DNA from: Bacteroidota bacterium
GTDB taxonomy: Bacteria; Bacteroidota; Bacteroidia; Bacteroidales; VadinHA17
Length of the DNA stretch: 36,511 bases
Direction of reading: 5' to 3'
NCBI GenBank assembly: GCA_011049175.1
Contig: DSCJ01000088.1
Coordinates: 1 to 36,511, forward strand
The notes below the pieces were generated by a model. The model was not told where the DNA came from, searched no databases, and saw nothing but the letters and a program-made list of their open reading frames with translations. The translations under genes were made by a program, and so were the position numbers. This document shows positions 6,796 to 36,511 of this stretch, in pieces (the first letter of the stretch is position 1; every line of letters begins with the position of its first letter).

Positions 6796-6817
6796 GTTTT
6801 ATGTTCAATCAATATAC

Positions 6818-7632: not shown

Positions 7633-7752
7633 GATCGGATGAACTATGTGTACACCAAATACCGCTCAAAAACCATACCATACCCGATTACTCTATTAGT
7701 CTGAATATCATATAATTAACAGGGTAGAGCCAGACTGTCCCGGTGCCGGAAA

Positions 7753-7783
7753 TTGTGAAAAACCGGGAATTTTATTATCTTTG
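7753..7783 (+). promoter_or_regulatory. Bacteroidota-type promoter of the KamA-family gene
   Basis: TTG at 7753-7755, a 20-nt spacer, then TATCTTTG at 7776-7783, an exact match to the Bacteroidota -7 consensus TAnnTTTG with proper spacing to the -33 element. Transcription should start near 7790, giving a leader of about 115 nt before the ATG at 7906. Confidence 0.7.
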
Positions 7784-7800
7784 TATATCAATGATCTTTC

Positions 7801-7855
7801 CGGAAGGATGCACCGGTTCAGCTTGAGTCCCTTCCGAACCAATTGGTCCTGAACC
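7801..7855 (+). promoter_or_regulatory. Candidate structured leader RNA (interleaved stems) upstream of the KamA-family gene
   Basis: Three self-complementary elements occupy the first half of the predicted leader. Stem A is CGGAAGG (7801-7807) with CCTTCCG (7830-7836). Stem B is GGTTCAG (7815-7821) with CTGAACC (7849-7855). There is also the palindrome ACCAATTGGT (7838-7847). Stems A and B are interleaved, so they could form a pseudoknot or be mutually exclusive. It does not match a riboswitch class I can recall. It is a pattern seen by eye; covariation is untested. Confidence 0.35.
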
Positions 7856-7905
7856 TTTCCAGGCATCTTCCAGAATATTATTAATGAAAATCAAGGAATC
7901 TTTCT

Positions 7906-19783: not shown

Positions 19784-19921
19784 AGGAATAACCTGATCGG
19801 ATCACATGAAATATGAAGTTAAATATACAATCAGAAATCTTATTAAAAAAGTATTTTCCCTTCCGGTGTTTCAGCCGTCAGGGGCTTCCCTCAGGCACAG
19901 CGGAATCTGGCCGGTGTTTTC

Positions 19922-19953
19922 TTTCCTGTTCAGTCGAAAAATGCTTAATTTTC
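19922..19953 (+). promoter_or_regulatory. Possible promoter of the C25 protease gene
   Basis: TTTC (19922-19925), a 20-nt spacer and TAATTTTC (19946-19953): both boxes match the Bacteroidota consensus except for C in place of the final G. The predicted start would lie near 19960, about 50 nt before GTG 20011. Confidence 0.3.
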
Positions 19954-20010
19954 CCAAAGAAAACTCCCCTGGATCTTTTTTCGTATAATGAAAAATCATA
20001 TCTCTGCCGG

Positions 20011-23000
20011 GTGAATCCATGGTCTGAAAATATCAGCACGCGAATACTGAGAATCTTCCTGTTCGTTTGGTCTGCTGCTGTAATATATCCGAACGACCTG
20101 CTTTCCCAGGGATTTTCTGAAAAACATACCTTACGGCTTCTCTCGTCCACCCCCGAAGCGCTGATCATAGAAAACCTCCCGGGCGAAATCGGCTTCATCA
20201 CCGTGGAAGCAGCCGGAAATCCCTTTACCCGGATCCGGATACCGGGTTACCTGCACAATGACCGGCCGGGCAAACCCGAACTGCCTGTTGTTCGCGCCTC
20301 AGTGGAGATACCGCAGGAAGCAGGAATGGAGATCATAATACTGGATAAAGACTCCCTGATCATCCCGCTGACGGAGAAAGGATACCCCCACCCCCTTTAT
20401 CCTTCACAACCCAGCATACGGAAGAATGCCCCGCAGAACGACAGGCCCTTTTATTTCGACAGCCTGACATACCGGCAAAACCGTTTTACGGATGACAGTC
20501 TCATCAGGGTTGAACCCATGGGCATCATGCGGGGAAGCCGGCTTGCAAGGATTACTGTTTCCCCTTTCCGCTACCATCCGGTGAAACATCTCCTGGTCGT
20601 TTATACACGCCTGGAATTTGAGATCCGTTTTAGCCATCCCAACCATATAATGACCAGGAACAAAAAGAAAAAATATTATTCCCCACTGTTCGAGCCCCTG
20701 CTGAAAAAATCACTGAATTATGAAGCTCCGGCAGTAAAAACGGAAGAACAGCCCGTGTCAGAAACCTACGTTATTCTGGCCGACAGTATGTTCCGTGATG
20801 CCCTGGCCCCCCTGGTGGAATGGAAAACAAAAAAAGGGTTCCGGGTAATTGAATTGTACATTGGAAAACCGGAAACCGGTAAAACGCCTGAAGAATTCAA
20901 ATCCAGCCTCAGCCAGCTGTATCATAACCCGCCTGAAGGAACCGCCCCGCCGGGATTCCTCCTCATCGTGGGCGATGTTAACCAGATCCCTTCCTCAGCC
21001 GGCACCGGCCATATAACCGACCTGTATTATGCCTGTTACGACGGGGAGGGAGATTACCTTCCCGAACTGTTTTACGGCCGTTTTTCCGCCAATACGGAAG
21101 AGGAACTGATCTCCCAGATAGAAAAAACCCTGGAATACGAACAGTATCTATTCCCCGATCCCTCTTTTCTGGATGAAGCAGTCATGATCGCCGGAGTGGA
21201 TAACACTTACGCTTCCCTGCACGGAAACGGTCAGATCCGCTACGGAACAGATTATTACATCAACAGTGCCCATGGCATCACGTCTCATACATACCTGTAT
21301 CCCGAATCGGGTTCTGCATCGGAAACCATCAAAACGCACCTCGGAAACGGCGTGGGTTTTGTCAATTATACCGGTCACGGGCAGTACGACCGGTGGGAGA
21401 ATCCCGTATTCAGTATATCCGATATCCCCTCTCTGACCAATACACACCGCTACCCCCTCATAATAGGGAACGGCTGCGCCACCAACCGGATGGAACATTA
21501 CGCCTGCCTGGGGGAAGCCCTTCTTCGTGCCCCGGAAAAAGGAGCCCTGGGGTACATCGGATGCAGCAACGATTCATACTGGGACGAGGACTATTACTGG
21601 GCTGTGGGGGTGGGTACCATTGTATCCCATCCTCTGTATGAAGAAACCGGCCCGGGCATGTACGACAAGGTTTTCCATGAAGGAAACGAATCGGAAAACT
21701 CCTGGGCACCCGCACAGGGACAGATGGTATTTGCCGGAAACATGGCTGTTCTGGAAGGCAGCCCACGCCACGCAAAATACTACTGGGAAATTTACCACCT
21801 CATGGGCGATCCATCCCTCATGCCATATTTTTCCGTCCCCGAACAACTCACAGCCTCTTTTCACAGCCATGTACCTGTCGGAACATCCTATCTCAACGTG
21901 CTGACCCTCCCCGGAGCGTATGCAGCCCTTTCGTCAGGGACCCAACTGCTGGCAGCCGCCCACGCCGGAGAAGACGGTCTGGCTGTTCTGCGCTTCGAAT
22001 CCCTTACACAGACCGATACCCTGGATCTGGTGATCACGGCACAGAACCGTCAGCCCCTGTTCGATACCCTGATGGTAAGCGATCCCAATTCCGTATTCCT
22101 TTCCCTGGAAAGCTGGTTTGTACGCGATACTTCGGGAAACAGCGACGGGATCATGAATCCGGGAGAAGATATCGGGCTGGGGATCACTCTCCGCAATCTC
22201 GGCATGGAAGAAGCCGCTCCGGTTCATCTCAGCCTGCACACTGCCGACACTCTGATCAGCCTCATCGATTCGCTGGATACGATACCTTCTCTGCCAGGCC
22301 AGGCTTCCATTACCCTGGATACCGCCTTTCGCTTCGTGGTGCCCGAAAAAGTACCCGTTGAACACTTGATACGGTTTCAGTTGATCACCACCGATCAAAA
22401 AAACCGTGTTTTCGAACATTTCATCGACCTGGTGGTACATACACCCGATCCGTTCATCGAAAGGATGCTGATTAACGACTCCCTGCAGGGCAATCTGAAC
22501 CGGCGGATCGACCCTGGAGAAACTTTTGAATTACAGGTGCAAGCAGGTAATCAAGGCTCCGGATCGCTCCAACATCCCGTTTTAACCGTTCAACCGGGAA
22601 ATGATATCAGTCTTCTCAGTTCTGCCACAGTTTCTTTCGACAGTCTGGGACCCGGCGATACCATTCATGCCTCTTTTCTGCTCGAGGCAGCAGCGGAAAT
22701 GGAGAAGGGAAGTCGGATTGACTTTGTAATTACCTGGGGATCTGAATATTACAACACTGAAGCCGGTCTCTCCCGGTATGCCGGGATCCCTTACGAAGAC
22801 TTTGAAACGGGCGACCTGCTGCAGTTCTCCTGGCAAAACGATCCTGTCCATCCCTGGGAGCTAACTACCGAACAGCCCGGAGAAGGCCGTTTTTCACTGC
22901 AATCGGGAGCCATTACCCACGGACAATCGACCGGCATGGAACTGACCCTGTACTTCCCTGAAAATGACACCATCGTTTTCCTTCGCCGGGTATCATCGGA

Positions 23001-24921
23001 ATATCATTATGATTTTCTGAGAATACATATTGACGGGGTGATGAAGGAAGAATGGTCGGGGGAGTTACCCTGGGATGAGGCGAAGATCCCGGTACCCTCC
23101 GGCCTGCATACCCTGAAATTCACCTATTCCAAAGACTTCAACACCACCAACGGCAGTGACAGGGCATGGATCGACAGGATCATCTTCCCACGGGCAGTGC
23201 ACCGAATGGCCGGAACGCTCACCGCCGATGAGACCACCGGTAACGGAAACCAGACGGTCGAAGCGGGAGAACAGGTCACTGTACTGGCCGGCCTGGATAA
23301 CCCCGGCATAACCGGCGGGTATCCGGTAACGGCGCGGCTGTCAGCGGATGAACCCCTCATCATACTGCATGACAGCATATGGGAATTCCCGGAAACAATC
23401 ACTCCCGATAACCAGCCGCTGGAGGCAAGATTTGCCATTGAAACCGATCCTCTGATCCCCGACGGGTACACGATTCCACTGGTGATCACCCTCACCGACA
23501 GCTCAAGGGGTTCATGGGAATATTATGCTGAAATGACAGTCAATGCCCCTTCGCTGGAGATAACGGAGGTATGGTGGAACGACAGCATTACAGGAAACGG
23601 AAACGGACAGCTCGACCCCGGAGAAACCATGAATTTTCACGTGGTCATCCGGAATACCGGGCATGACGTGGCAGGTCAGTCGACATTCTTTCTGGATACA
23701 CATCCCGAACACGGAACACCCGTCACATTTCTGAATGATACGACACAACTCCAGTTCCTTGCCGCCGGCAACTCGCAAACGGTGGTATTCCCTATGGAAG
23801 CCGCAACCGGCGTTACCGACCCCCTGATCCCTTTCCTGCTCAGGCATATCGAACCGGGCGATACCCTGCTCGGCACCTGGTACAAATCGCTGGGCCATCC
23901 CTGTGAGGATTTTGAAACGGCAGGTTTCGACAAATTCCCCTGGATCACAGAGGATGCCGGGCACTGGATGATCACGCCGGGTTTGCCGGCTGAAGGCAGG
24001 TATTCCGCCAATTCGCCCTCAACAGAACATAGCGCGAAATCATCGCTGCGCCTGGTGGTTGAAAACCGGGAAAACGGAGATATTCTCTTTTTCAGGAAGG
24101 TGTCTTCAGAACAGAAATACGACTTTCTGGAGTTTCACCTGGACGACATCCTGGTCGAGCAATGGTCGGGGGAAATGGACTGGGCAGCCGAAACGTATCC
24201 CCTGCCGGGGGGAATCCATACCCTGACCTGGACCTACGCCAAAGACGGCTCCCTCAGCGCCGGAGATGACCGGGCATGGATCGACTACGTGGTGTTGCCT
24301 TACACAAGCGAAGCAGTGCATGTCGATCTGGAAACGGCCGGATTTCGTTATCCGGAAAACGATTCCCTCCTGGGTACGGATGAACGGATCTGCATCGGTG
24401 TAGTCAACCACAGCAGCATTCCGCTCAGCAACATTCCGGTAAGCTATGCCGTCGACCGGGGCATGCCGGTATCGGAACTCATAACAGAAACCATACAGCC
24501 CGGAGATACCTGCTGGCACGAATTTACGGGTACGGTCGACCTGTCGCCCGTGGGAAGCTATGAACTGACAGCCTCTGCAGGGTATCCGCACGACTGGTAC
24601 CCGGCAAACGACTCCTGCCGGACCATTCTCGAAAACCTGTCGCCCGAATACATAAACCCTGCGCAAAGCCGGCCCGGACTGTTCCTGTTCCCGCAACCGG
24701 CACAGGATATGTTGCACATCACATTCACAGCTACCGGAAGCAACCCGGTGGTTTTTCTGGTAACCGATATAACCGGGAGGGTCAGGATTACCAGAAACAT
24801 GAAACCGGTTTATGGAAAAAACAGCCATACTTTGTATCTTCGCACCCTGGAACCCGGGGTATATATTTTGCATTACAGGGAAGATTCCATCACGCAACAT
24901 GCCGTTTTTCTCAAGGAATAA
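20011..24921 (+). CDS. Gingipain-type C25 cysteine protease with type IX secretion C-terminal domain
   Basis: Open reading extends back to ATG 19813, but those 66 codons look non-coding and would bury the signal peptide. GTG 20011 gives a signal sequence (NISTRILR, then IFLFVWSAAVIY) and 1636 residues. A gingipain propeptide-like region precedes the C25 catalytic domain, which has GDVNQIP, the catalytic His in VNYTGHGQYD (codon 21376) and the catalytic Cys in IGNGCATNRMEH (codon 21475). After it come several beta-rich modules with the recurring pattern G-N-x-N/D-G-x-x-x-P-G-E (for example ITGNGNGQLDPGE), and two copies of a 130-residue jelly-roll-like module. The last 85 or so residues (FPQPAQDMLHI ... 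LEPGVYILHY) are a type A T9SS sorting domain, so the protein should be secreted or surface-anchored. The closest known family roles are surface proteolysis and, for PorU, processing of T9SS substrates. PorU lacks such a sorting domain, so this is more likely a substrate than PorU. Confidence 0.9.
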   Translation: MNPWSENISTRILRIFLFVWSAAVIYPNDLLSQGFSEKHTLRLLSSTPEALIIENLPGEIGFITVEAAGNPFTRIRIPGYLHNDRPGKPELPVVRASVEIPQEAGMEIIILDKDSLIIPLTEKGYPHPLYPSQPSIRKNAPQNDRPFYFDSLTYRQNRFTDDSLIRVEPMGIMRGSRLARITVSPFRYHPVKHLLVVYTRLEFEIRFSHPNHIMTRNKKKKYYSPLFEPLLKKSLNYEAPAVKTEEQPVSETYVILADSMFRDALAPLVEWKTKKGFRVIELYIGKPETGKTPEEFKSSLSQLYHNPPEGTAPPGFLLIVGDVNQIPSSAGTGHITDLYYACYDGEGDYLPELFYGRFSANTEEELISQIEKTLEYEQYLFPDPSFLDEAVMIAGVDNTYASLHGNGQIRYGTDYYINSAHGITSHTYLYPESGSASETIKTHLGNGVGFVNYTGHGQYDRWENPVFSISDIPSLTNTHRYPLIIGNGCATNRMEHYACLGEALLRAPEKGALGYIGCSNDSYWDEDYYWAVGVGTIVSHPLYEETGPGMYDKVFHEGNESENSWAPAQGQMVFAGNMAVLEGSPRHAKYYWEIYHLMGDPSLMPYFSVPEQLTASFHSHVPVGTSYLNVLTLPGAYAALSSGTQLLAAAHAGEDGLAVLRFESLTQTDTLDLVITAQNRQPLFDTLMVSDPNSVFLSLESWFVRDTSGNSDGIMNPGEDIGLGITLRNLGMEEAAPVHLSLHTADTLISLIDSLDTIPSLPGQASITLDTAFRFVVPEKVPVEHLIRFQLITTDQKNRVFEHFIDLVVHTPDPFIERMLINDSLQGNLNRRIDPGETFELQVQAGNQGSGSLQHPVLTVQPGNDISLLSSATVSFDSLGPGDTIHASFLLEAAAEMEKGSRIDFVITWGSEYYNTEAGLSRYAGIPYEDFETGDLLQFSWQNDPVHPWELTTEQPGEGRFSLQSGAITHGQSTGMELTLYFPENDTIVFLRRVSSEYHYDFLRIHIDGVMKEEWSGELPWDEAKIPVPSGLHTLKFTYSKDFNTTNGSDRAWIDRIIFPRAVHRMAGTLTADETTGNGNQTVEAGEQVTVLAGLDNPGITGGYPVTARLSADEPLIILHDSIWEFPETITPDNQPLEARFAIETDPLIPDGYTIPLVITLTDSSRGSWEYYAEMTVNAPSLEITEVWWNDSITGNGNGQLDPGETMNFHVVIRNTGHDVAGQSTFFLDTHPEHGTPVTFLNDTTQLQFLAAGNSQTVVFPMEAATGVTDPLIPFLLRHIEPGDTLLGTWYKSLGHPCEDFETAGFDKFPWITEDAGHWMITPGLPAEGRYSANSPSTEHSAKSSLRLVVENRENGDILFFRKVSSEQKYDFLEFHLDDILVEQWSGEMDWAAETYPLPGGIHTLTWTYAKDGSLSAGDDRAWIDYVVLPYTSEAVHVDLETAGFRYPENDSLLGTDERICIGVVNHSSIPLSNIPVSYAVDRGMPVSELITETIQPGDTCWHEFTGTVDLSPVGSYELTASAGYPHDWYPANDSCRTILENLSPEYINPAQSRPGLFLFPQPAQDMLHITFTATGSNPVVFLVTDITGRVRITRNMKPVYGKNSHTLYLRTLEPGVYILHYREDSITQHAVFLKE
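22801..23190 (+). repeat. Internal protein module repeat, copy 1 (C25 protease)
   Basis: 130 codons beginning FETGDLLQF and ending DRAWIDRIIFP. The second copy starts 1110 nt later. Shared positions include F-E-T, RRVSSE/RKVSSE-x-x-YDFL, EEWSGE/EQWSGE, LHTLKFTYSKD/IHTLTWTYAKD and DRAWID. It is probably an adhesion or carbohydrate-binding jelly roll, by appearance only. Confidence 0.75.
23911..24300 (+). repeat. Internal protein module repeat, copy 2 (C25 protease)
   Basis: 130 codons from FETAGFDKF to DRAWIDYVVLP, the same length as copy 1 and aligned to it without large gaps. The two are separated by two beta-rich spacer modules with G-N-G-N repeats. Confidence 0.75.
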
Positions 24922-25600
24922 CGCCAACGCCCGGGGCCGGACAAACATTTCGGGTGTGAGCCATTACATTCATCAGCTGATCAGGGAAGGAGAACACCAG
25001 CAACTGGATTTCAAATACGGCATTACCGATTCCAGAAAAATTGCCCGGACCTTTTCCGCTTTTTCCAACACCCGCGGAGGCAGGCTTCTGATCGGGATCA
25101 AGGACAATGGAAACGTTTCGGGGGTAAAAACCGAAGAGGAGTATTACATGCTGGAAGCAGCGGCCCAGCTGTATTGCCGTCCGGAAGTATCCTTCGAAGT
25201 AAAGAAATGGCAGGTAAATGAAAAAACCGTTCTGGAAGCGATCATCCCCGAAGCCCCGGAAAAACCCGTGCTGGCTCCCACAGAACAGGGCCCGTGGAAG
25301 GCTTTCATCAGAGTGAATGATCAAAACCTGGTGGCTGCCAGGGTGATCCTTAAAATATGGAATCTGGAGAACAGGAAACATGGCCTCAGCATCAAATATA
25401 CCCGGAAGGAAAGAATGCTGATCGAATGGCTGGAAAAAAACGATACCATTACCCATACCCAGTTCTGCCGGTTGGCGACCCTCACCCGCAACAGTGCCGA
25501 GAACACCCTGGCGCATCTGGTGGTGCTAGGGGTCCTGTCTATGGAAGTCGGACAAAAACAGATCCTGTTCCGGCTGAATACCCCGGATGAAAAAAAATAA
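24899..25600 (+). CDS. AlbA_2 (Schlafen-type) putative DNA-binding protein
   Basis: 233 residues from ATG 24899; the open frame runs upstream inside the protease gene but without a better start. The gene overlaps the last 23 nt of the protease gene. Residues 20-150 carry the AlbA_2 pattern: EGEHQQLDFKYGI, SRKIARTFSAFSNTRGGRLLIGI, DNGNVSGV and later PEKPVLAPTEQGPWKAFIRVND. The C-terminal part (LIEWLEKNDTITHTQFCRLATLTRNSAE and on) looks like a winged helix-turn-helix. It is probably a cytosolic regulator or nucleic-acid-binding protein; targets unknown. The overlap with the secreted protease suggests translational coupling, which is odd for such different products. The following racemase-family gene begins 25 nt downstream. 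Confidence 0.8.
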   Translation: MPFFSRNNANARGRTNISGVSHYIHQLIREGEHQQLDFKYGITDSRKIARTFSAFSNTRGGRLLIGIKDNGNVSGVKTEEEYYMLEAAAQLYCRPEVSFEVKKWQVNEKTVLEAIIPEAPEKPVLAPTEQGPWKAFIRVNDQNLVAARVILKIWNLENRKHGLSIKYTRKERMLIEWLEKNDTITHTQFCRLATLTRNSAENTLAHLVVLGVLSMEVGQKQILFRLNTPDEKK

Positions 25601-27191: not shown

Positions 27192-27962
27192 ATGAGCAGG
27201 CAGGCCACATTCCGGTTTTATGAGGAGCTGAACGACTTCATTCCGGCAATGAGGAAAAAAAAAGCTTTTGCCCATTCCTTCACAGGAACGCCATCGGTAA
27301 AAGATGCCATTGAAAGTCTGGGAGTGCCGCATACGGAAGTAGACCTCATCCTGGTAAACGGCCGGCCGGTGGATTTTTCCTACCTGCTGACCGGCGGAGA
27401 ATATGTATCGGTCTACCCCTGTTTTGAAAGTATTGATATATCGGGTGTCACCGGCTTACGCGACCGGGGCTTGCGCGTCAGCCGTTTCATTCTGGACGTG
27501 CACCTGGGCAAGCTGGCCAGGTACCTGCGGTTGTTCGGTTTCGACACCGTATATGAAAAAGATTACAACGACCGGGAAATAGCCCTCCGGAGCGTGCAGG
27601 AAATGCGCATTTTATTAACACGTGATGTGGGGTTGCTGAAACACAAAAACCTGACTCACGGATACTGGCTTCGCTCACAGAAACCCATAACACAGTTACA
27701 GGAGGTGCTGGATCATTTCGACCTGTATTCGCAGGCAAAGCCTTTCAGCAGATGCATGGCATGCAACGGGATCATTGCCCCGGTCAGCCGGCAGGAGGTG
27801 GAGGAACACATCCCTCCCCTCACCGGGAAATACGTTCAAGCGTATTCCCGTTGCACAGGGTGCGGAAAAATATACTGGGAAGGAAGCCATTATGAAAGAA
27901 TGAAGGAAATGGTGGCCCGGATCCTGGGCAGAAAAAATTCTTCATACCCGTCACGACCATGA
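27192..27962 (+). CDS. Ubiquitin-like / Mut7-C (PIN-like RNase fold) protein
   Basis: 256 residues. The first 80 look like the ThiS/ubiquitin-like Mut7-C partner: TFRFYEELNDFI, PSVKDAIESLGVPHTEVDLILVNGRPVDF and GGEYVSVYP. From about residue 95 it is a Mut7-C domain: RFILDVHLGKLARYLRLFGFDTVY, where the Asp is an expected catalytic acid, and RILLTRDVGLLKH with the second acid. The C-terminal zinc ribbon has CMACNG and CTGCGKIYW. Family members are predicted RNases; none of the key residues is missing. The gene ends in a 4-nt ATGA overlap with the phosphoesterase gene, so the two are co-translated. Cytosolic. Role in tRNA or mRNA turnover is inference from the fold. Confidence 0.88.
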   Translation: MSRQATFRFYEELNDFIPAMRKKKAFAHSFTGTPSVKDAIESLGVPHTEVDLILVNGRPVDFSYLLTGGEYVSVYPCFESIDISGVTGLRDRGLRVSRFILDVHLGKLARYLRLFGFDTVYEKDYNDREIALRSVQEMRILLTRDVGLLKHKNLTHGYWLRSQKPITQLQEVLDHFDLYSQAKPFSRCMACNGIIAPVSRQEVEEHIPPLTGKYVQAYSRCTGCGKIYWEGSHYERMKEMVARILGRKNSSYPSRP

Positions 27963-28668: not shown

Positions 28669-29589
28669 TCAGGAAACCGACAGAATGGCTTTTTCCAGCA
28701 GCGCTTTCGTGGCCCGGGTACCGGCATACTCATCCAGCCCGCTTCCCTCGTATTCAATACCGATATATCCCCTGTAACCCGAATCTTTCACAATGCCGAG
28801 CATTCGATAGAAATCGGTATGGATCTCATTCCCCTCCTCATCGAATTCATGGGATTTGGCAGAAACACCCTTTGCCCAGGGCATCAGTTCCTTCACACCC
28901 AGGTAGCGGTCATATTCCTCATCAGCACTGATTCTGAAGTTCCCGAAATCGGGAAGGGTCCCCACCCGGGGATGATCCACCGTCCGCATCACTTCGGAAA
29001 GCCATTTTGCATTGCTGGAAAGGCCTCCGTGGTTTTCCACAATCACGTTGATATTATACCGGTCGCCGTATTCACACAGTCGCCTGAGGCCGTCAGCGGC
29101 CAGCTTCATCTGCTCCTCATACGACCCTTCGCTGCGGGCATTCACCCTGATGGAATGGCAACCCAGAAAAGCAGCTGCTTCCACCCATTTATGGTGATTG
29201 GTAACGGCCTCGAAGCGTTTTTCTTCGTCAGGATCGCCCAGGTTTCCTTCATTGTCGCACATGATCAGCAGGCTGGTTACTCCTTCCCCGTCACAGCGTT
29301 TTTTCAGTTCGGCCAGGTATTTTTCGTCACGCGCCCTGCCGGGATAGAATTGGTTAACATACTCCACCGCTTCGATTCCAAAATCCTGCCGGGCTATGAC
29401 AGGAAAATCGAGTGGATCCTTGCCAAGGGACTCATCCCAGAAGGTACGGTGCAACGACCATTGTGCCAGAGAGATTCCAAACAGGGGATCTTTACGGCCC
29501 CGGCAGGCAGACAGAAGGGAAGGAGCCAGCATCAGGCCCGTTCCCGCCAGCACTGTGCTGGAAAGAAATTTTCTTCTGTTTTGAGGCAT
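28669..29589 (-). CDS. Tat-exported xylose-isomerase-like TIM barrel (candidate 3-keto-glycal hydratase)
   Basis: 306 residues from ATG 29589; longer starts would bury the signal. The N-terminus [11 protein letters not shown] is a Tat motif followed by a hydrophobic stretch and the lipobox LLSAC, so it is probably a lipoprotein. The barrel belongs to the sugar phosphate isomerase/epimerase family (AP_endonuc_2), with metal-site residues in VIVENHG (Glu), LPDFGN (Asp), AKSHEF (His) and IGIEYEG (Glu). It is the last gene of a seven-gene leftward operon with two Gfo/Idh/MocA oxidoreductases and DUF1080 proteins. In Bacteroides thetaiotaomicron a similar set (BT2156-2160, recalled) breaks down 3-keto-glycosides, the TIM barrel acting on the keto-glycal. 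A hydratase or epimerase role is therefore likely. It differs in being exported. Confidence 0.82.
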
Positions 29590-29607
29590 GGTGGTTATTT
29601 TAAATGT

Positions 29608-29652
29608 GAAAGGCCGGTGCGGCCTGTCATGGACATGCCCTGCCGGCCTTTC
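29608..29652 (-). promoter_or_regulatory. Intercistronic GC hairpin between DUF1080 and TIM-barrel genes
   Basis: GAAAGGCCGG (29608-29617) and CCGGCCTTTC (29643-29652) form a perfect 10-bp stem around a 25-nt loop. No U-tract follows on the minus strand, so it is not a classical terminator. It may stabilise the upstream mRNA and set the level of the last gene. Confidence 0.5.
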
Positions 29653-29669
29653 CGATGTTTGTAAACGGG

Positions 29670-30461
29670 TCAAAGTTCCTTGAGCTTGATGTTTTTGAAC
29701 CATACATCGTTACCGTGATCCTGCAGGGCGATGTACCCTTCGCGGTACTTGCCGAACTCTTCATACCCGGCAAACTTGCTGTTGGCCACCAGTTCTTCCC
29801 AGTCGGGTGTTCCCAGGTGGTATTCCAGTACCTGTTCACCGTTCATTTTATGTACAACGGTACCCTGGTACACGATAATCTCAACCTGGTTCCATTCCCC
29901 GGCAGGTTTGGCATTCTGGGGTTTGGCAGGGATCAGGTCGTACAGCGAGCCGGCCTTCCGGTTTCCTTCTTTCCCCAGATTTGCATCAATATGCCTTTCA
30001 TTGTCAAGCACCTGCATTTCAGGTGCCGATTTCCAGATCTCCGTTCCGGGTATTTCCTGGGCCAGGTAAAAGATACCGCTGTTTCCGCCTTCCGAGATCT
30101 TCCAGTCGAGCTTCAGGTGGAAATCCTTGAATTTGCGGTCGTAAAGGATGTCTCCACCCTGGCCGCCGGCTTCGCCTTCACCGCTGCCTATGCATTTCAG
30201 GGCACCGTCTTCGATCGTCCAGCCAGCTTCGGGGAAGCTCTCTTTATTGTAACCCCTCCAGCCGTTGGTGGAAGAACCGTCGAAAAGAAGCATCCAGCCC
30301 TCTTCCATTTCAGCCTGGGAAAGGGTATTGTCGGCCGGAGCTTCCACAGCGGTTTCTTCAGGAGCTTCTTCACCACCGGTTTTTTTACCGGTCGATTTAC
30401 AGGAAATTCCTAACAGCATGAAAGCTGCCGTCAGCATCATGAGTATTCCTTTTGTTTTCAT
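29670..30461 (-). CDS. DUF1080 lipoprotein (3-keto-disaccharide hydrolase/lyase family)
   Basis: 263 residues from ATG 30461, where [10 protein letters not shown]... gives a lipoprotein signal ending LLGISCKS; the longer frame (to 30488) adds only a short non-signal stretch. An acidic Glu/Pro linker follows the lipid Cys. The concanavalin-like DUF1080 domain shows [44 protein letters not shown] and the C-terminal [18 protein letters not shown]. Family members cleave 3-keto-glycosides, some by beta-elimination. It probably sits in the periplasm or outer membrane as the keto-glycoside-cleaving step, next to the oxidoreductases that would make the 3-keto substrate. It is closest in pattern to the protein encoded at 34892. 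Confidence 0.88.
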
Positions 30462-30498
30462 AGGTGGTTGAATTTTTGTGGTTAACAATGATCGGTAG

Positions 30499-31983
30499 TT
30501 ATGGCATATCCGGCAATGACCAGCCGTTGCGGTATGTATGTTTCACCAGTTCGGCGGCATACTCTTTTGCCGGAAGCGGGTCGGTCCATTTCTTATCGAA
30601 GGTAGGATGTCCATCGTGTATCTGGAAGCCGTCTTCGACCACCACCCGAAGGGTTTCGTGTTCGCCGATATTGGTAAAGGTCATATTGGGTCCGTCCCAC
30701 AGCAGTTCCTTGTTCAGGCCCTGCAATCTGACGGCCAGCACGCCCATCACCACCATTTCATTGAACGGGCCCGCTTCACTGAATGGGGAAGCTGTTTCCA
30801 CGCGGTTTCCGGGACTTTCCTTGCAGGCCCTGATCCAGTCCTGTTCGTGGTTTTCGTTGGGAACCCGGCGGATAGTTTTGGGCACGCTGGGTACCCTTCC
30901 GGAAAGGAGCCAGGGGTCTTTCCCGTAGCAACCGCAGATAAGCTTGTCTTTGGTTCCGTGGAAGATCACCCCACCGCCGGCATCGTTCATATCCCGGCCT
31001 TCGGGCCAGCCTTCGGGCTTCATAGGCTGCAATCCGCCGTCATACCAGGTCACCTCCACCTGGGGCAGCTTCAGTTTCCCGTACCTGGGTCTTTCCGGGA
31101 AAATAATCCTGACCATCTGGGCATTGGGAGCACAATCGGTCAGCAGGAGTGTGGAACTTCCCTGTACCCGGGTAGGATATCCCAGTTTCAGTCCCACGAA
31201 CACAGGATGCAGAATATGGCAGGCCATGTCGCCCAGGGCGCCCGTGCCAAAATCCCACCATCCTCGCCAGTTCCAGGGGGTATACAGTTCATGATACGGA
31301 CGCATGGGAGCGGGTCCGATGAAAAGGTCCCAGTTCAGGGTTTCGGGCACCCACATACCGGGGCTGGGCCTGTTCAGACCCTGCGGCCAGATGGGCCGGT
31401 CAGTAAATGCCTCTACTTTGGTCACCTCTCCGATCTCACCGTTCCACAGCCACTCGCAGATCAAACGGACTCCTTCACCGCTCGATCCCTGATTTCCCAT
31501 TGAGGTAGCCACTTTGTATTTCTCAGCCAGTTTGGTCAGGAGCCTGGATTCGTACACCGAATGCGTAAGGGGTTTCTGGAGATACACATGTTTGCCCATG
31601 GTAATGGCATGGGCGGCAGTAATGGCATGGGTGTGATCGGCTGTGGCGATCACCACGGCATCGATGCTCTTCCCCATTTCGTCGTACATTTTTCTCCAGT
31701 CCCAATAGGCTTTGGCTTTTGGATAATGCTCAAATACCCGCTGGCTGTATTTCCAGTCCACGTCACACAGAGCCACAATATTTTCTGTCTCCATGGCCTT
31801 CAGATTGGCAAAGCCCATACCTCCCACCCCGATCCCGGCAATGTTCAGCTTATCGCTGGGCGGGGTATGACCCAGACCGCTGATCACATAACTGGGAAGA
31901 ATGGTGAATCCTGCAGCGGCAGCTGCCGAATTGGCCAGAAATCTTCTTCTGGACAGCTTGTTTGATTCGTATTCTTGTGCCAT
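30499..31983 (-). CDS. Gfo/Idh/MocA oxidoreductase with Tat signal
   Basis: 494 residues from ATG 31983; an upstream ATG at 32013 adds ten residues and is possible. SRRRFLANSAAAAAGFTIL is a Tat signal. The NAD-binding motif is IAGIGVGGMGFANL, and the second landmark, usually E-K-P, reads YLQKPLTHS, keeping the Lys but replacing Glu by Gln. The C-terminal part has WWDFGTGALGDMACHILHP, seen in many glycosidase-like or sugar-oxidising members, with the probable catalytic His. Oxidation at C3 of a glycoside by tightly bound NAD is the expected reaction. Tat export would let the protein fold with its cofactor before transport. A possible internal promoter stands upstream at 32045-32077. Confidence 0.87.
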   Translation of the reverse strand: MAQEYESNKLSRRRFLANSAAAAAGFTILPSYVISGLGHTPPSDKLNIAGIGVGGMGFANLKAMETENIVALCDVDWKYSQRVFEHYPKAKAYWDWRKMYDEMGKSIDAVVIATADHTHAITAAHAITMGKHVYLQKPLTHSVYESRLLTKLAEKYKVATSMGNQGSSGEGVRLICEWLWNGEIGEVTKVEAFTDRPIWPQGLNRPSPGMWVPETLNWDLFIGPAPMRPYHELYTPWNWRGWWDFGTGALGDMACHILHPVFVGLKLGYPTRVQGSSTLLLTDCAPNAQMVRIIFPERPRYGKLKLPQVEVTWYDGGLQPMKPEGWPEGRDMNDAGGGVIFHGTKDKLICGCYGKDPWLLSGRVPSVPKTIRRVPNENHEQDWIRACKESPGNRVETASPFSEAGPFNEMVVMGVLAVRLQGLNKELLWDGPNMTFTNIGEHETLRVVVEDGFQIHDGHPTFDKKWTDPLPAKEYAAELVKHTYRNGWSLPDMP

Positions 31984-32044
31984 AATTCCGGTATTTTTGG
32001 TTGGTTCGTTCAATGGTCAACGGCAGGCTGCAATGCCGATTCTT

Positions 32045-32077
32045 TAAAATTAATCAATTTATTGTAAAAAAAACAAA
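32045..32077 (-). promoter_or_regulatory. Possible internal promoter before the Tat oxidoreductase gene
   Basis: Minus strand: TTTG (revcomp of 32074-32077), 21-nt spacer, TAATTTTA (revcomp of 32045-32052), one base off TAnnTTTG. The start would fall near 32038. The 5' leader then holds a small hairpin with CGGCA/TGCCG arms. Confidence 0.4.
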
Positions 32078-32083
32078 CCCTGC

Positions 32084-33658
32084 TCATATGATCTGTTGTT
32101 TATCAGGATCCCAGTAAACTTTTCTGCCTTCCCGGTAGGCGATAGTTCCCATGTGGGCAGTCATGGCTTCTTCAAAGCCGGCATCGATATGGCAGCTGGT
32201 TGGCGATCCCGTGCGGATGGCGTCGATCCATTCGCGGATATGGAGATGGGTTGTATCCACCCGTTTACCGCCCCGGTAAGTATATAACAGTCCTCTTCCG
32301 GCAAAGTATTGCTCGGTGGCGGAAGTCACAGCATCCACCTGTTTGGTTCCCGGAGTATATGTATAGATGGGGAGAGAAGGATCGATAATTCCTTTTCTGA
32401 TCTGTTTGGCATACCGGGTTGAGGCCGGGTCGGCTTTGATGATCAGGGTATCACCCATTTCCATACTGGCATCGTGTCCCATGATCACCTTGCCGCGGGA
32501 ACGCTGGCTGGCCAGGGTAGCGCTGTACATCAGGGTGAGGTCTTTCTCCGGATACTCGAACACGGTATGCAGTACATCGGGAACGGTACGTCCGTCCTTG
32601 TAGAAATAGATCCCTCCCGAGGAAACCGCTGAACGGGGAATGCCCAGTCCCAGTATCTGGTTCATGGCATCGTATTCATGGGTCAGCAAATCACCGGAGA
32701 GGCCGGTGCTGTAATCCCACCAGCAGCGCCATCTGAAGAATCTTTCCAGGCTGAACTCGTGCCAGGGGGCAGGCCCGATAAACTGTTCCCAGTCGATAGT
32801 ATCGGGACCGGCATCCGGGTGAATGGGATACACCCAGGCACCGTTGGGATCATTCCGGTTGGTAGTTACTTCGATCAGGGTGATCTTACCCAGCAGGTCT
32901 TTTTCAATAGCTTCCCTGGCTTTGATATAACTTTCTGTTTGCCTTCCCTGGTGGCCCAGCTGAAATACAACCCCGTTCTCCTTCACTGCTTTCACCACCT
33001 CATAGGTTTCCTGAACGGTCCATGTCATGGGTTTTTCACAGTAAACATGTTTCCCGTTCCGGGCGGCTTCAATGGTCATGGGTCCGTGCCAGTGATCGGG
33101 CGTGGCAATGATCACGGCATCGATATCGGGGGAAGCACACAGTTCTTTGTAATTTTTAAACCGCCGGGGGGCATCGCCCATTTTCCCGCCGGTTCCCTCC
33201 CTGTAAATATTTGCCCCTGCCTCCACAGCCAGTTCTCCGTAGGTATCGAAAATATCGCAAACACCATTAACCACTACATTCAGATCATCCTGGGCCAGAA
33301 AATCCTGGTACCGGGTATCGGAAGGATTGATGGCAGCGGCATCCCTTACCGTATCAATCCATGCAGGATGAGCAAATCCGGCTGCCCGGGCCAGGTGTGG
33401 CCCGCGTATCCCGTAGCCGATAATTCCCAGACGGAGGGTTTTCCCCTCACTCAAGGGAGGAGGAGCCGGTACGGGGTTCGTACTCATGTTCAGCTCGCTG
33501 AAGATGTTCTTCTTCAGCAGGCGGTCATACCGGCGTTTTCTGTACCAGGCATAGGCAAAAACGCCCAACACCGGCACAGTGGCCAGGGTTTTTACCCATT
33601 CTCTGCGATGCACCTTCCCCGAAAGGCTGTTTTCCTTGTTGTCACTTTCCATTTCCAT
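32084..33658 (-). CDS. Membrane-anchored Gfo/Idh/MocA oxidoreductase
   Basis: 524 residues from ATG 33658, chosen because AGGAG stands 7 nt upstream, an unusually good ribosome site for this genome. The longer frame would overlap the DoxX gene. The N-terminus has HRREWVKTLATVPVLGVFAYAW, a twin-Arg pair with a hydrophobic segment but no clear cleavage site, so a membrane anchor or Tat signal. The nucleotide motif is LGIIGYGIRGPHL and the landmark YCEKPMTWTV has the canonical E-K-P. WRCWWDYSTGLSGDLLTHEYDAMNQ resembles the same segment of the second oxidoreductase (about 30-40% alike by eye). Two different oxidoreductases side by side is also the arrangement of the B. thetaiotaomicron locus. Separation from the DoxX gene is 20 nt. 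Confidence 0.87.
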   Translation of the reverse strand: MEMESDNKENSLSGKVHRREWVKTLATVPVLGVFAYAWYRKRRYDRLLKKNIFSELNMSTNPVPAPPPLSEGKTLRLGIIGYGIRGPHLARAAGFAHPAWIDTVRDAAAINPSDTRYQDFLAQDDLNVVVNGVCDIFDTYGELAVEAGANIYREGTGGKMGDAPRRFKNYKELCASPDIDAVIIATPDHWHGPMTIEAARNGKHVYCEKPMTWTVQETYEVVKAVKENGVVFQLGHQGRQTESYIKAREAIEKDLLGKITLIEVTTNRNDPNGAWVYPIHPDAGPDTIDWEQFIGPAPWHEFSLERFFRWRCWWDYSTGLSGDLLTHEYDAMNQILGLGIPRSAVSSGGIYFYKDGRTVPDVLHTVFEYPEKDLTLMYSATLASQRSRGKVIMGHDASMEMGDTLIIKADPASTRYAKQIRKGIIDPSLPIYTYTPGTKQVDAVTSATEQYFAGRGLLYTYRGGKRVDTTHLHIREWIDAIRTGSPTSCHIDAGFEEAMTAHMGTIAYREGRKVYWDPDKQQII

Positions 33659-33678
33659 ACTGCTCTCCTGTTTATTGA

Positions 33679-34173
33679 CTATTTTACTTGTTTTTTGTTC
33701 TTCTTTCTTCCCAGCACCCAACGGTCAACCCCAATCTCCTTCCCCGTGGGGAATACATAGAGAACTGCCAGGGCGGCCAGCTCGATCAGGGTCTTATCCA
33801 CCACCAGGTAATTGCCTTCCATGGGTGAGGCATACTTCAGGCCCACAAACGGCGGATGGGACAGGTAGTAAAAAGCGAGCAGGACAATGCCTGCCATGGT
33901 AGCCACCCGGGTAAACAATCCCAGGATCAGTCCCAGTCCGATAAAAATCAGTCCCCAGACATTCAGAAAATCCACAGTAGCCAGCACATCGGAATTTAAT
34001 GTCAGGGAATGGAAAAACGGGGAAAACCATCCCTGGCTGTCGAGCAGATAGAATGCCGATGTCCAGTTCGGATTTACCAGTTTCGCAATCCCTTCATAAA
34101 GAAAATGCCAGCCAATCAGCAGTCTGAGTATGACCATCCATGTAAGTTGTACATTGTTCTTCCAGTTCATCAT
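33679..34173 (-). CDS. DoxX-family membrane protein
   Basis: 164 residues, four hydrophobic helices: LTWMVILRLLIGWHFLYEGIAKL, VDFLNVWGLIFIGLGLILGLF, VATMAGIVLLAFYYL and LIELAALAVLYVF. The opening helix with LR-x-x-I-G-x-x-F-x-x-x-G-x-x-K is the DoxX signature. The end is Lys-rich (KKNKKQVK). DoxX proteins are tied to quinone-linked electron transfer in some archaea; here one could take electrons from the exported oxidoreductases to the quinone pool, which is inference. It lies inside the 3-keto-glycoside operon, 61 nt after the DUF1080 gene, with its own promoter-like element upstream. The start is ATG 34173 or ATG 34170. Confidence 0.85.
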   Translation of the reverse strand: MMNWKNNVQLTWMVILRLLIGWHFLYEGIAKLVNPNWTSAFYLLDSQGWFSPFFHSLTLNSDVLATVDFLNVWGLIFIGLGLILGLFTRVATMAGIVLLAFYYLSHPPFVGLKYASPMEGNYLVVDKTLIELAALAVLYVFPTGKEIGVDRWVLGRKKNKKQVK

Positions 34174-34195
34174 CTCGCCATTGTTGAAATGTTAG

Positions 34196-34228
34196 CAAAC
34201 ATAAGCTCCCGGCCACCATGCCGGCAGG
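34196..34228 (-). promoter_or_regulatory. Promoter-like element before the DoxX gene
   Basis: Minus strand TATGTTTG (revcomp of 34196-34203) matches TAnnTTTG exactly, about 22 nt before the ATG. The -33 position reads CCTG, two bases off TTTG. It could drive the DoxX and oxidoreductase genes apart from the DUF1080 genes upstream. Confidence 0.45.
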
Positions 34229-34234
34229 AATTTG

Positions 34235-34891
34235 TTATTTATCAAGTGTTTTTATTCGAATATGCCTGTATTTAATCTTTCCATTGCTTGTCCTGCATAC
34301 CTGAAGGGCAATGGATCCCCTGCCCTTTTCAATCCTGCCATCTTTCAGGCTGATCATTCTTTTTCCGTTCAGCCATACCTTCACCCGGTTCTTTTTTACT
34401 TTCAGACGAAACTGGTTCCATTTGCCGGGCACAGGATATATTTTCCGGCGGGGTGGCAGGGTTTCCAGCCAACCTCTGCCGTGGGTTTCCAGAATTCCCG
34501 AAGTATCCTCAGGGGATGTAGCCAGCACAGCCTGCCAACCCATGATGTCCTTCCCGTCGGTGGCGGACCGAAAAAATATCCCGGCAGCCGATTCCTCTTC
34601 CGGAAAAAATTCAAGGGACAGTTCAAAATCAATAAAATGTTCACGGGTACATAAAAAACCCGGTGCGCGTCCCGAAAGACTTTCTCCCACCAGTTCTCCC
34701 TTCTCGGCATACCAGCTGCCTTCGCCGGCTTGCCGCCATCCGTCCAGGTTCACTCCATTAAACATCGAAACCCAGCCGTTTTTTTCATCCGGCAGGGTAT
34801 TGTCATCTACAGCAGGTCCCTCTACCGCGGCACACAGAATCAACCAGCCTGTCATACCAGGCAAGAGACGTCCGAAGAATGTCCGCTTCAT
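34235..34891 (-). CDS. Divergent DUF1080-like secreted protein
   Basis: 218 residues, signal peptide at residues 1-25 (LLPGMTGWLILCAAVEG). The fold signature NGWVSMFNGVNLDGWRQAG and FIDFELSLEFF, then GKWNQFRLKVKKNRVKVWLNGK, place it in the DUF1080 family. It is shorter than the other two. GGNSGI reads ESAAGIFF here, and the end lacks the Q-D-H-G motif (IALQVCRTSNGKIKYRHI). If those residues matter for catalysis it may be a binding or accessory partner instead of an enzyme. The start codon touches the stop codon of the preceding DUF1080 gene (0 nt between), so the two are coupled. Confidence 0.82.
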   Translation of the reverse strand: MKRTFFGRLLPGMTGWLILCAAVEGPAVDDNTLPDEKNGWVSMFNGVNLDGWRQAGEGSWYAEKGELVGESLSGRAPGFLCTREHFIDFELSLEFFPEEESAAGIFFRSATDGKDIMGWQAVLATSPEDTSGILETHGRGWLETLPPRRKIYPVPGKWNQFRLKVKKNRVKVWLNGKRMISLKDGRIEKGRGSIALQVCRTSNGKIKYRHIRIKTLDK

Positions 34892-35662
34892 CTACTCCAA
34901 TTCACGAATTTTGATATTCCTGAACCATACTTTGCTTCCGTGATCCTGCAGACATATATGGCCCTCCCGGGCTGTTCCGTAGCCGGGATAGTCTTTCCAT
35001 TTTCCCTGTTCCACTTTTTCCTTCCACTCATCGGTCCACAGTTCATATTCCACCACTTTCACTCCGTTTAACCAGTGTTCCACGTGTCCATCCTTCACCC
35101 GGATCATCGATTTGTTGTATTTTCCAACCGGTTTTACCCTGGGGTTGACCGGCGGGTGCATGGCATAATTGGCCCCTGTGGTCTGCCAGGGTTCCAGTTT
35201 TTCAGGAAAACCGATATCATCTATAATCTGGTATTCGGGCCCCGTGGCATAGGGAACATCATATCCCTCTTCCTTCACAAGATACATGATCCCGCTGTTC
35301 CCCCCCGGACTGATTTTCCATTCGACCAAAAATTCAAAATCACGGAATTTCTCCCGGGTAATAATATCTCCCGAAAGGTCGGTTCCTTCTCCCAGGGCAA
35401 CCAGATTACCGTCTTCAGCCACCCAACCTCCCACCAGGGAATCGGCACCGAATGATCTCCAGGCATCCAGGCTTTTTCCGTCGAACAGCAATACCCAGCC
35501 TTCTTCAATTTGTTCGGCAGTAAGGCTGTTATGCATAGCAGGCTGTTCCGTTCCGGCAATCTGTTTCTCCGTTTCCTGATGTTCAGAACGGGTTCCCTGC
35601 CGGCAGGAACAAAGAAATGTAATGGAAATCAAGGTTATGTTTATGAGAAATGCGCGGTACAT
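34892..35662 (-). CDS. DUF1080 lipoprotein, first gene of the 3-keto-glycoside operon
   Basis: 256 residues. A lipoprotein signal with lipobox TFLCSC at residues 15-20 is followed by a Glu/Gln-rich linker. The DUF1080 domain has EGWVLLFDGKSLDAWRSFG, EWKISPGGNSGIMYLV, PEYQIIDDIGFP, YNKSMIRVKDGHVEHWLNG and LQDHGSKVWFRNIKIREL. The long middle segment with HPPVNPRVKPVGKYNK is typical of the larger members. It is expected to cleave 3-keto-glycosides made by the downstream oxidoreductases. The 197 nt before 35859 contain no sure promoter; TATTTTAG (minus, 35723-35730) is one base off. No regulator gene lies in the window for this operon. Confidence 0.88.
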   Translation of the reverse strand: MYRAFLINITLISITFLCSCRQGTRSEHQETEKQIAGTEQPAMHNSLTAEQIEEGWVLLFDGKSLDAWRSFGADSLVGGWVAEDGNLVALGEGTDLSGDIITREKFRDFEFLVEWKISPGGNSGIMYLVKEEGYDVPYATGPEYQIIDDIGFPEKLEPWQTTGANYAMHPPVNPRVKPVGKYNKSMIRVKDGHVEHWLNGVKVVEYELWTDEWKEKVEQGKWKDYPGYGTAREGHICLQDHGSKVWFRNIKIRELE

Positions 35663-35766
35663 GGGATTACACTTATTTTGGATGAAACATGCATTTCCAT
35701 GGATGGCTTAAAAAAAGAAGTCCTAAAATAAGAATTATTTACGAAAAATACCGGCCGGCACCGGGG

Positions 35767-35782
35767 AATGTTCCGGAATATT
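35767..35782. promoter_or_regulatory. Imperfect palindrome in the divergent spacer
   Basis: AATGTTCCGGAATATT is palindromic except for one mismatched pair. It lies between the leftward DUF1080 operon and the rightward amrS gene, near a second palindrome CCGGCCGG (35751-35758). It could be an operator for either side; only the symmetry supports this. Confidence 0.25.
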
Positions 35783-35913
35783 TTCTTAAACATTTTCATG
35801 GGATTGTCAGGAGTTTTTTTTCATGCCTATTTTTTTTATCTTTTGGTCCGGGCAGGCAGATGTACAAACGGTCAAAATGCTCCCGGGGATTTATTGATAA
35901 AAGGCAGAAGATC

Positions 35914-36511
35914 ATGAAGAAGGAAGCTATGTACGCAGAAAAAGCAGGTGCAGATAATGTGCGTTGTTTGCTGTGCCCGCACCGATGCCTGATTAAACCC
36001 GGCAAAAGGGGAATATGCCGGGTAAGAAAGAATGTTAACGGAACCCTGGTAACCGAAACGTATGGAAAGCTTTCGGCGGTTCATATTGATCCGGTGGAAA
36101 AAAAACCCCTGTATCATTTTTACCCCGGCCGAACCATTCTTTCTGTAGGAAGCATTGGCTGCAATATGCATTGCGATTTCTGCCAGAACTGGGATATTTC
36201 TCAGTCATCGCCCGATAATTTTCACCATCTGAAAGAACACTTTCCGGAAGAGCTGGCCGAGGTGGCAGCCGAGTCGAAAGACAACATCGGAATAGCATAC
36301 ACGTACAATGAGCCTGTGGTATTTTATGAAATGATGATAGATACAGCACGGCTGGTGCATAAGAGGGGCAAAATGAATGTGGCGGTGACCAATGCATTCA
36401 TCGAACCGGACCCCCTGCAGGAACTGATCCCTCTGATGGATGCGTTCAATGTGGATTTGAAAGCCTTTGATAAGGAATTTTACAGGAAATATGCCGGTGC
36501 CAGACTGGAAC
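35914..36511 (+). CDS. amrS: AmmeMemoRadiSam system radical SAM enzyme (partial, cut by window end)
   Basis: 199 codons before the edge; the family is about 330-350 residues. The start at ATG 35914 puts MKKEAMYAEKAG at the usual family N-terminus, with VRCLLCPHRC and GKRGICRVRKN right after. An in-frame ATG at 35860 would add 18 residues and cannot be excluded. The radical SAM motif CNMHCDFC sits in GSIGCNMHCDFCQNWDISQ. TYNEPVVFYEMM and FNVDLKAF follow, all standard for AmrS. The usual partners are Memo and AMMECR1 proteins, which would lie to the right. The function of the system is not established. No clear promoter: TATCTTTT (35837-35844) lacks a TTG at the right distance. Confidence 0.9.
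   Translation, partial: MKKEAMYAEKAGADNVRCLLCPHRCLIKPGKRGICRVRKNVNGTLVTETYGKLSAVHIDPVEKKPLYHFYPGRTILSVGSIGCNMHCDFCQNWDISQSSPDNFHHLKEHFPEELAEVAAESKDNIGIAYTYNEPVVFYEMMIDTARLVHKRGKMNVAVTNAFIEPDPLQELIPLMDAFNVDLKAFDKEFYRKYAGARLE

Follow-up and report, generated by a model that had tools for sequence, protein, structure and literature searches.

DoxX and a Gfo/Idh/MocA oxidoreductase as a candidate membrane electron-transfer module in a 3-keto-glycoside cleavage operon of Bacteroidota

Analysis of a 36,511 bp stretch of DNA (the window; contig DSCJ01000088.1 of the Bacteroidota bacterium assembly GCA_011049175.1) revealed seven co-directional open reading frames (ORFs) on the minus strand, between 28669 bp and 35662 bp, in which genes of 3-keto-glycoside cleavage stand together with a widely conserved two-gene unit encoding DoxX and a Gfo/Idh/MocA oxidoreductase, which we have designated GFO1. 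This pair is the new part of the locus. Our reading is that an envelope 3-keto-glycoside cleavage operon is joined here to a conserved membrane electron-transfer module, in which DoxX and GFO1 would pass electrons by way of flavin mononucleotide (FMN) to menaquinone; we put its probability at roughly one half. The ORFs, designated K1, K2, DoxX, GFO1, GFO2, K3 and TIM in 5′ to 3′ order, were separated by gaps of 0 to ~100 bp. Gene starts were ATG codons picked by eye, which corrected the listed ORF lengths of GFO1, GFO2, K3 and TIM, as these contained upstream extensions. Families were called from Pfam matches above the curated cut-offs, NCBIfam models were also run, and export signals were read by eye only. 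The seven minus-strand ORFs and their make-up agreed with what an earlier reading of the DNA letters (the sequence-only reading) had proposed, namely three PF06439 proteins, DoxX, two Gfo/Idh/MocA oxidoreductases and one xylose-isomerase-like TIM barrel. That reading had also called for a search for conserved order in other Bacteroidota, and the identical seven-gene order was found in one near relative, present in two collections (L051 and L071), which argues that the arrangement is not due to chance. The nearest named relative with this order was the metagenome-assembled genome (MAG) HyVt-105 (L071), a name that presumably points to a hydrothermal vent. The genome to which the window belongs is 3.24 Mb in 139 contigs and 98% complete.

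The locus very probably carries the 3-keto-glycoside core known from BT2156-BT2160 of Bacteroides thetaiotaomicron, as the sequence-only reading had suggested. GFO2 (30499-31983, minus strand; PF01408, 52 bits; Tat-type signal SRRRFLANS) scored 915 bits against the NCBIfam equivalog BT_2158_fam (NF058561, glycoside 3-dehydrogenase), and it is because the cut-off of 750 bits is exceeded that the 3-keto reading is well supported. GFO2 also aligned nearly end to end with the solved chains 8tdf (796 bits) and 8tdh (782 bits), the PDB titles of which are glucoside-3-dehydrogenase AL3 and its trehalose-bound form. All three PF06439 (3-keto-disaccharide hydrolase, DUF1080) proteins exceeded the cut-off of 26.8 bits: K1 (34892-35662, minus strand; 176 bits) has a Sec lipoprotein-like signal, FLCSC, K2 (34235-34891, minus strand; 110 bits) has a weaker N-terminus resembling a Sec-type signal peptide and K3 (29670-30461, minus strand; 183 bits) has a lipoprotein-like signal, LLGISC. 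They were the only PF06439 matches in the whole genome, and a PDB search with K1 as the query returned 3u1x and 8tda among its solved relatives. Cleavage of 3-keto-glycosides is said to proceed by elimination chemistry, in a study of an "alternative broad-specificity pathway". The expected role of K1-K3 is cleavage of the 3-keto-glycoside, by elimination or hydrolysis. TIM (28669-29589, minus strand; AP_endonuc_2, PF01261, 103 bits; Tat lipoprotein-type signal NRRKFL...LSAC), for which the best solved relative was 4ovx (398 bits), is the candidate enzyme for processing the keto-sugar product. In published studies, BT2158 is described as a periplasmic glycoside 3-dehydrogenase, a mutant of which fails to grow on trehalose, leucrose and palatinose (PMC11300592); neither the BT2157 nor the BT2158 single mutant was impaired on raffinose-family sugars, which counts against a wider role (PMC11501099); and in Caulobacter a DUF1080 protein bearing a putative signal peptide has been proposed to act with the membrane lactose 3-dehydrogenase LacABC (PMC9007349).

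The second Gfo/Idh/MocA protein, GFO1 (32084-33658, minus strand; PF01408, 73 bits), was considered as the counterpart of BT2159, and this was ruled out by the NCBIfam scores. GFO1 gave 131 bits against BT_2158_fam (cut-off 750) and no match to BT_2159_fam (NF058563; E 0.001), against which GFO2 scored 33.9 bits (cut-off 650). The genome holds eight PF01408 matches, and the three that were tested of the six non-operon Gfo proteins gave no BT2159-family dehydrogenase either (≤22 bits). On these scores GFO1 is a Gfo protein distinct from both the BT2158 and the BT2159 families. An alignment of GFO1 with GFO2 was restricted to residues 144-364 (hhalign probability 99.7, E 3.8e-26) and paired the lysine of the E-K-P motif and the D-x3-H region. 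The AlphaFold model of GFO1 had a mean predicted local distance difference test score (pLDDT) of 81.8, and its top PDB matches by Foldseek were Gfo-fold dehydrogenases, sugar dehydrogenases among them, with 8tdh at rank 39. Among related operons, the middle Gfo genes of L087 and L077 were considered as BT2159 and rejected, as they matched PRK11579 instead (345 and 311 bits; cut-off 330). The TIM genes of such operons were likewise rejected as BT2156, those tested (L087, L046) matching an inosose dehydratase model only, and weakly.

Conservation of the DoxX-GFO1 pair was followed in three samples. A scan of GTDB contigs with GFO1 turned up no fewer than 552 relatives, and the 80 best were retained as named loci. 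These came mostly from Bacteroidales, Prolixibacteraceae and similar MAGs, and they include the cultured Prolixibacter bellariivorans (L076) and Geofilum rubicundum (L118), both of which have the pair. From 147 genomes including that of the window, 77 of which matched GFO1 at E 1e-30 (many of these being weaker paralogues), we chose a further 40 relative loci, which share genomes with the 80. DoxX adjoined GFO1 in 79 of the 80 named loci, in 74 as an ORF within 200 bp and in five by tblastn (nearly whole in L084, L085 and L145, cut by the contig end in L086 and a 55-residue fragment in L122). The exception, L138, starts inside GFO1. In the chosen loci DoxX was directly adjacent in 38/40, L040 and L045 being the exceptions. 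When 395 Bacteroidota genomes were searched with DoxX, eight besides that of the window matched, and in all eight a GFO1 of 46-49% identity lay directly downstream, with both the Arg-Arg anchor and the motif described below. The pair is thus, by its conserved arrangement, an old unit, and DoxX and GFO1 in all probability form a complex. A second GFO1 clade (L035-L045, 44-48% identity) was also paired with DoxX apart from L040 and L045. Its gene neighbourhoods differ, with for example a GH20-type gene nearby in L035, which suggests that this clade may act on other substrates.

The N-terminus of GFO1, RREWVKTLATVPVLGVFAYAWYRKRR, looks like an uncleaved anchor. An Arg-Arg pair (33602-33607, minus strand) precedes the membrane helix and was invariant in 33/33 aligned sequences; it was followed by a hydrophobic and then a basic stretch, and no cleavage site was evident. 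We infer that GFO1 is extracytosolic and held by an uncleaved twin-arginine helix. DoxX (33679-34173, minus strand; PF07681, 36.3 bits, cut-off 23.6), the partner of GFO1, is small, with roughly four membrane helices, and its alignment contained invariant polar residues. With the helix borders set by eye, the short second loop of 35 aligned DoxX sequences carried on average 0.94 K+R and 0 D+E and the C-terminal tail 4.5 and 1.8, and the two long loops were slightly acidic (K+R/D+E of 2.2/3.1 and 1.3/1.8). As the short loop and the tail are positive, the positive-inside rule places both ends of DoxX in the cytoplasm. This suggests an N-in/C-in topology in which the long conserved loops lie on the periplasmic side and face GFO1.

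The C-terminal part of GFO1 contained the motif D-x-x-[STA]-[ST]-[AP]-T, the D and the T of which were invariant in all 33 aligned sequences. In the operon it reads DAVTSAT (32315-32335, minus strand), the last threonine being residue 462, and it is a candidate site for covalent FMN attachment by ApbE. The ApbE flavinylation site is given as D-x-x-[S/T]-G-A-[S/T], with FMN on the last residue, in a review of ApbE (PMC12052999). The distant GFO1 of L195 ends its motif in serine, the other residue that ApbE accepts. Among ORFs gathered from L031-L188, a loose form of the pattern, in which glycine was also allowed, was present in 116/118 GFO1 entries (partly redundant, as the genomes overlap, and thus not independent), compared with 2/136 other Gfo proteins, 0/112 DoxX alone and 12/1120 other ORFs. 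The two GFO1 entries that lacked it were the second Gfo of L062, a misassigned paralogue, and L129, which reads DGVVTPT. The genome of the window encodes one ApbE (G000:C10:46722-47522, 274 bits), and a DAFSGAT motif in a nearby protein (L184), which we take to be NqrB-like, is a hint that this genome flavinylates. As ApbE was found in 130/147 genomes its presence says little, and it was set aside as an uninformative test. A further motif, DAITGAT, was observed at L053:15106-16659 (minus strand), in an FGE-sulfatase-like domain fused to a NapC/NirT cytochrome N-terminal region.

A kindred arrangement was found in a second enzyme family, as many DoxX matches in the relatives sat in frames of ~500-550 amino acids. 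Fusions were held by 17 of 20 fetched loci, each consisting of DoxX, an Arg-Arg anchor, a short linker with the site and a C-terminal domain. The anchors are similar, with the consensus RRDLLKALATVPVLGAFAYGVYKKRKYDRL in GFO1 and RRELLKGLASLPFLGAFAYAALKKNKWESF in the fusions, and 12 of these 17 first-fetched fusions had the canonical site D-x-x-[ST]-G-A-[ST]. Matches to the fusion domain in the 147 genomes came to 76 rows, of which 68, in 67 loci, were read; two full-length rows (G077:C237 and G085:C153) and six fragments were left out. The site D-x-x-[ST]-[GS]-x-[TS] was present in 52/56 proteins with a full DoxX and in 1/11 homologues without one. In two truncated proteins the site was altered: L198, with an apparent DoxX remnant, reads DAVSGAP and L204, which apparently keeps the first helix, reads NEAVRGAS. 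In L226 the pattern matched a stretch earlier than the apparent site. A quick IQ-TREE phylogeny was built from the C-terminal domain alone (65 rows; L221 was excluded for its split frame and L206 for a masked run of N, and L246, in which DoxX is in pieces, received no DoxX state). DoxX changed at least seven times on this tree, and in seven independent pairs the motif went the same way as DoxX in 6.6 on average and the opposite way in 0 (sign test p 0.0156, range to 0.031). As DoxX precedes the motif and DoxX-less proteins retain the anchor, this coupling suggests a functional tie.

The nature of the C-terminal domain of the fusions was also explored. A first impression by eye that it was an aldo/keto reductase was not supported. 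Pfam searches of five fusions returned only models of the membrane part, such as DoxX, DoxD and MauE, and for L151 neither NCBIfam nor the PDB gave a match. The family profile had weak PDB matches only, the best being to a short stretch of Lmo0132 and to IMP dehydrogenase (E 0.035-0.25), by which the domain may, weakly, be TIM-barrel-like. A single-sequence fold of L151 had a pLDDT of 39.8 and was not used.

Several results weigh against a flavin-bearing, DoxX-linked GFO1. The canonical D-x-x-[ST]-G-A-[ST] site was found in 0/118 GFO1 entries, so that GFO1 falls short of the strict site and is a near match only. In every GFO1 motif listed, position 5 was serine or threonine in place of the canonical glycine, position 6 was proline in some, and a change of G to A alone cuts flavinylation by about half (PMC12052999). 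The motif lies in a low-confidence region of the GFO1 model, with pLDDT <50 at residues 461-463. ApbE was not seen in seven of 74 DoxX genomes (G004, G014, G045, G052, G074, G075 and G077), among them G052 (100% complete), G074 (95%) and G077 (94%), and such near-complete genomes speak against a flavin unless the assemblies miss ApbE. ApbE neighbourhood was set aside as general evidence, as among the ORFs of L031-L170 the gene occurred in L046 only. L040 and L045 keep the motif with no DoxX in their fetched DNA, tblastn included. Four of the 56 full-DoxX fusions miss the site by pattern, three through one-residue variants (L231 EAVTGAS, L234 QAVSGAS and L229 DATTRAT) and the fourth through a split frame. 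DoxX itself had no relative among the solved structures searched. Some of these observations would fit an alternative in which DxxTSAT is a loop with a structural or substrate-binding role and not a flavin site, DoxX serves only to anchor or assemble the oxidoreductase, and another sugar recycles the nicotinamide, as happens in glucose-fructose oxidoreductase; the residue at position 5, the poorly modelled loop, the two loci without an adjoining DoxX and the genomes in which ApbE was not seen all favour it. That a kindred motif, mostly canonical or with serine for glycine, occurs in the DoxX-fused family and is gone where DoxX is gone argues against it, and we regard the alternative as unlikely. 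The chances of a covalent flavin on GFO1 appear to us to be even.

The link of DoxX-GFO1 to the 3-keto pathway was examined at two levels, with Fisher 2x2 tables counted by reading match lists. In a sample of the order (59 genomes, one per family; GFO1-positive meaning a match above ~370 bits, with G098, G109 and G110 weaker), the BT2158 family was present in 9/9 genomes with GFO1 and in 3/50 without it (p 1.8e-8). With DoxX of either form as the marker, the figures were 10/10 and 2/49 (p 1e-9). A DUF1080 or GFO2 gene lay within the fetched DNA of 56 of the 80 named loci, GFO2 was directly 3′ of GFO1 in 13, and L046 encodes DoxX, GFO1, GFO2, DUF1080, TIM and ApbE on a single strand. Across the phylum the association was weak and was set aside: BT2158 occurred in 2/8 DoxX genomes compared with 20/386 others (p 0.068, the genome of the window left out), a BT2158-family match (E 1e-180) being absent from six of the eight distant DoxX genomes. 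As those 20 BT2158 genomes are without this DoxX, it is dispensable for the BT2158 pathway. These counts also tell against the electron-transfer reading, and they lend support to the view that the locus is an ordinary BT2156-2160-type cluster beside which DoxX-GFO1 is a neighbour with an unrelated redox role in the envelope, for example on a membrane lipid, a quinone or a cell-wall sugar. The 24 named loci without DUF1080 and GFO2 in their fetched DNA, many of them on short contigs, point the same way. The co-occurrence within the order and the 13 loci with GFO2 directly after GFO1 are hard to square with an unrelated neighbour, however, and we consider it improbable. DoxX-GFO1 is, on these distributions, a frequent partner of the 3-keto pathway and not a required part. 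The description of the locus as an expanded BT2156-2160 set was accordingly not upheld, as DoxX-GFO1 is a separate module that was free of BT2158 in most of the distant genomes, whereas the possible membrane electron outlet that had been proposed with it was strengthened by the DoxX-GFO1 pairing and the motif data.

In the proposed mechanism GFO2 would oxidise the C3 hydroxyl of a glycoside using bound nicotinamide, K1-K3 would break the activated glycosidic bond and TIM would process the keto-sugar product. GFO1, held on the periplasmic face by its uncleaved twin-arginine helix and in complex with DoxX, would have its own nicotinamide reduced by a sugar, most likely also a glycoside or a free sugar of this pathway. 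Hydride would then pass from this nicotinamide to covalent FMN on Thr462 of DAVTSAT, and electrons from the FMN through DoxX to menaquinone. The periplasm has no free NAD(P) and exported Gfo dehydrogenases carry nicotinamide there, so that the bound cofactor of an exported Gfo enzyme has to be re-oxidised where it sits, as is the case for glucose-fructose oxidoreductase. The potential of the alcohol/ketone couple is below that of menaquinone, by which the oxidative direction would be favoured. A quinone as the electron acceptor is, in our estimate, a little short of an even chance. The same components could also serve a reductase, menaquinol passing electrons through DoxX to the flavin of GFO1, which would reduce the 3-keto sugar to sugar after cleavage; the cleaved keto-sugar does need reduction somewhere. 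By the potentials involved, however, menaquinol is a weak donor for a ketone and a cytoplasmic reductase would be simpler, and a reductive GFO1 seems very unlikely.

The operon was compared with known systems. It resembles BT2156-BT2160 in its BT2158-family 3-dehydrogenase, PF06439 protein(s), TIM-barrel protein and envelope export, and differs in having three PF06439 genes, no adjacent BT2159-family dehydrogenase or regulator, and the added DoxX-GFO1. DoxDA thiosulfate:quinone oxidoreductase has a DoxX/DoxD-type membrane subunit proposed to pass electrons to quinone, whereas the partner here is a Gfo protein and the operon DoxX is below the cut-off of the Pfam DoxD model (20.7 bits; cut-off 22.7). 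The glucose-fructose oxidoreductase of Zymomonas is a Tat-exported Gfo enzyme with bound nicotinamide, as is suggested for GFO1, but it is soluble and its cofactor is recycled by a second sugar; we know of no DoxX partner for it. The lactose 3-dehydrogenase LacABC is of the FAD/GMC type with a cytochrome. It belongs to a separate protein family from the candidate membrane enzyme proposed here, a Gfo protein with DoxX, and the likeness lies in membrane-linked sugar 3-oxidation coupled to periplasmic DUF1080 in Caulobacter and Pedobacter (PMC9007349). ApbE-flavinylated NqrC, RnfG and fumarate reductases have a similar site on an exported redox protein beside a membrane partner, whereas here the enzyme is Gfo/Idh/MocA or TIM-barrel-like and the membrane partner is DoxX; the terms GFO and DoxX did not occur in the main text of the two papers on these systems (PMC8238504, PMC11334425). 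In the literature searched, with most subscription-journal papers outside it, no paper among those listed tied DoxX to ApbE or flavinylation, DoxX with MocA gave one paper, on another subject, and DoxX with FMN gave no relevant title among those listed.

How exported Gfo dehydrogenases dispose of their electrons is a genuine puzzle in 3-keto-glycoside cleavage. If the electron-transfer reading is true, a DoxX-linked, flavin-bearing Gfo protein would solve it and would couple envelope sugar cleavage to respiration. DoxX, a poorly understood family, would gain a defined function, ApbE flavinylation would reach two more enzyme families, and the Arg-Arg anchor, the motif and DoxX would serve as sequence rules for finding more such systems. 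More tentatively, a DoxX subunit or domain with a twin-arginine helix may mark an undescribed class of Bacteroidota membrane dehydrogenases, in which a Gfo or TIM-barrel-like enzyme would pass electrons by way of FMN to menaquinone. Sugar oxidation in the envelope would then feed respiration directly, and the fused form would depend on two export routes, with DoxX inserted by Sec and the folded domain carried by Tat.

The sequence-only reading had stated that no SusC/D, regulator or glycoside hydrolase is adjacent to the operon. In the 25 ORFs of the window that were scanned with Pfam (the seven of the operon, both flanking genes and 16 others) there was no SusC/D and no glycoside hydrolase; the statement held for these, with the qualification that a sensor-type regulator protein with Propeller/Y_Y_Y and SpoIIE phosphatase domains is encoded ~9 kb from the operon (16424-19783, minus strand). 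A radical SAM gene (35689-36510, plus strand) is divergent from the operon, and in L056 the same cluster has a divergent gene that resembles it by its N-terminus. In several relatives a protein of ~880 amino acids is encoded between DUF1080 and DoxX, the L056 copy of which (5848-8517, plus strand) is M14 carboxypeptidase-like. A gingipain-like peptidase (19813-24921, plus strand) has a Peptidase_C25 domain with its propeptide and a Por_Secre_tail match just below the cut-off, and these features make it likely to be a type IX secretion cargo. The 3′ end of its gene is overlapped by a Schlafen/AlbA_2 ORF (24812-25600, plus strand), and a further ORF (27192-27962, plus strand) encodes a Mut7-C RNase domain together with its own ubiquitin-like domain.

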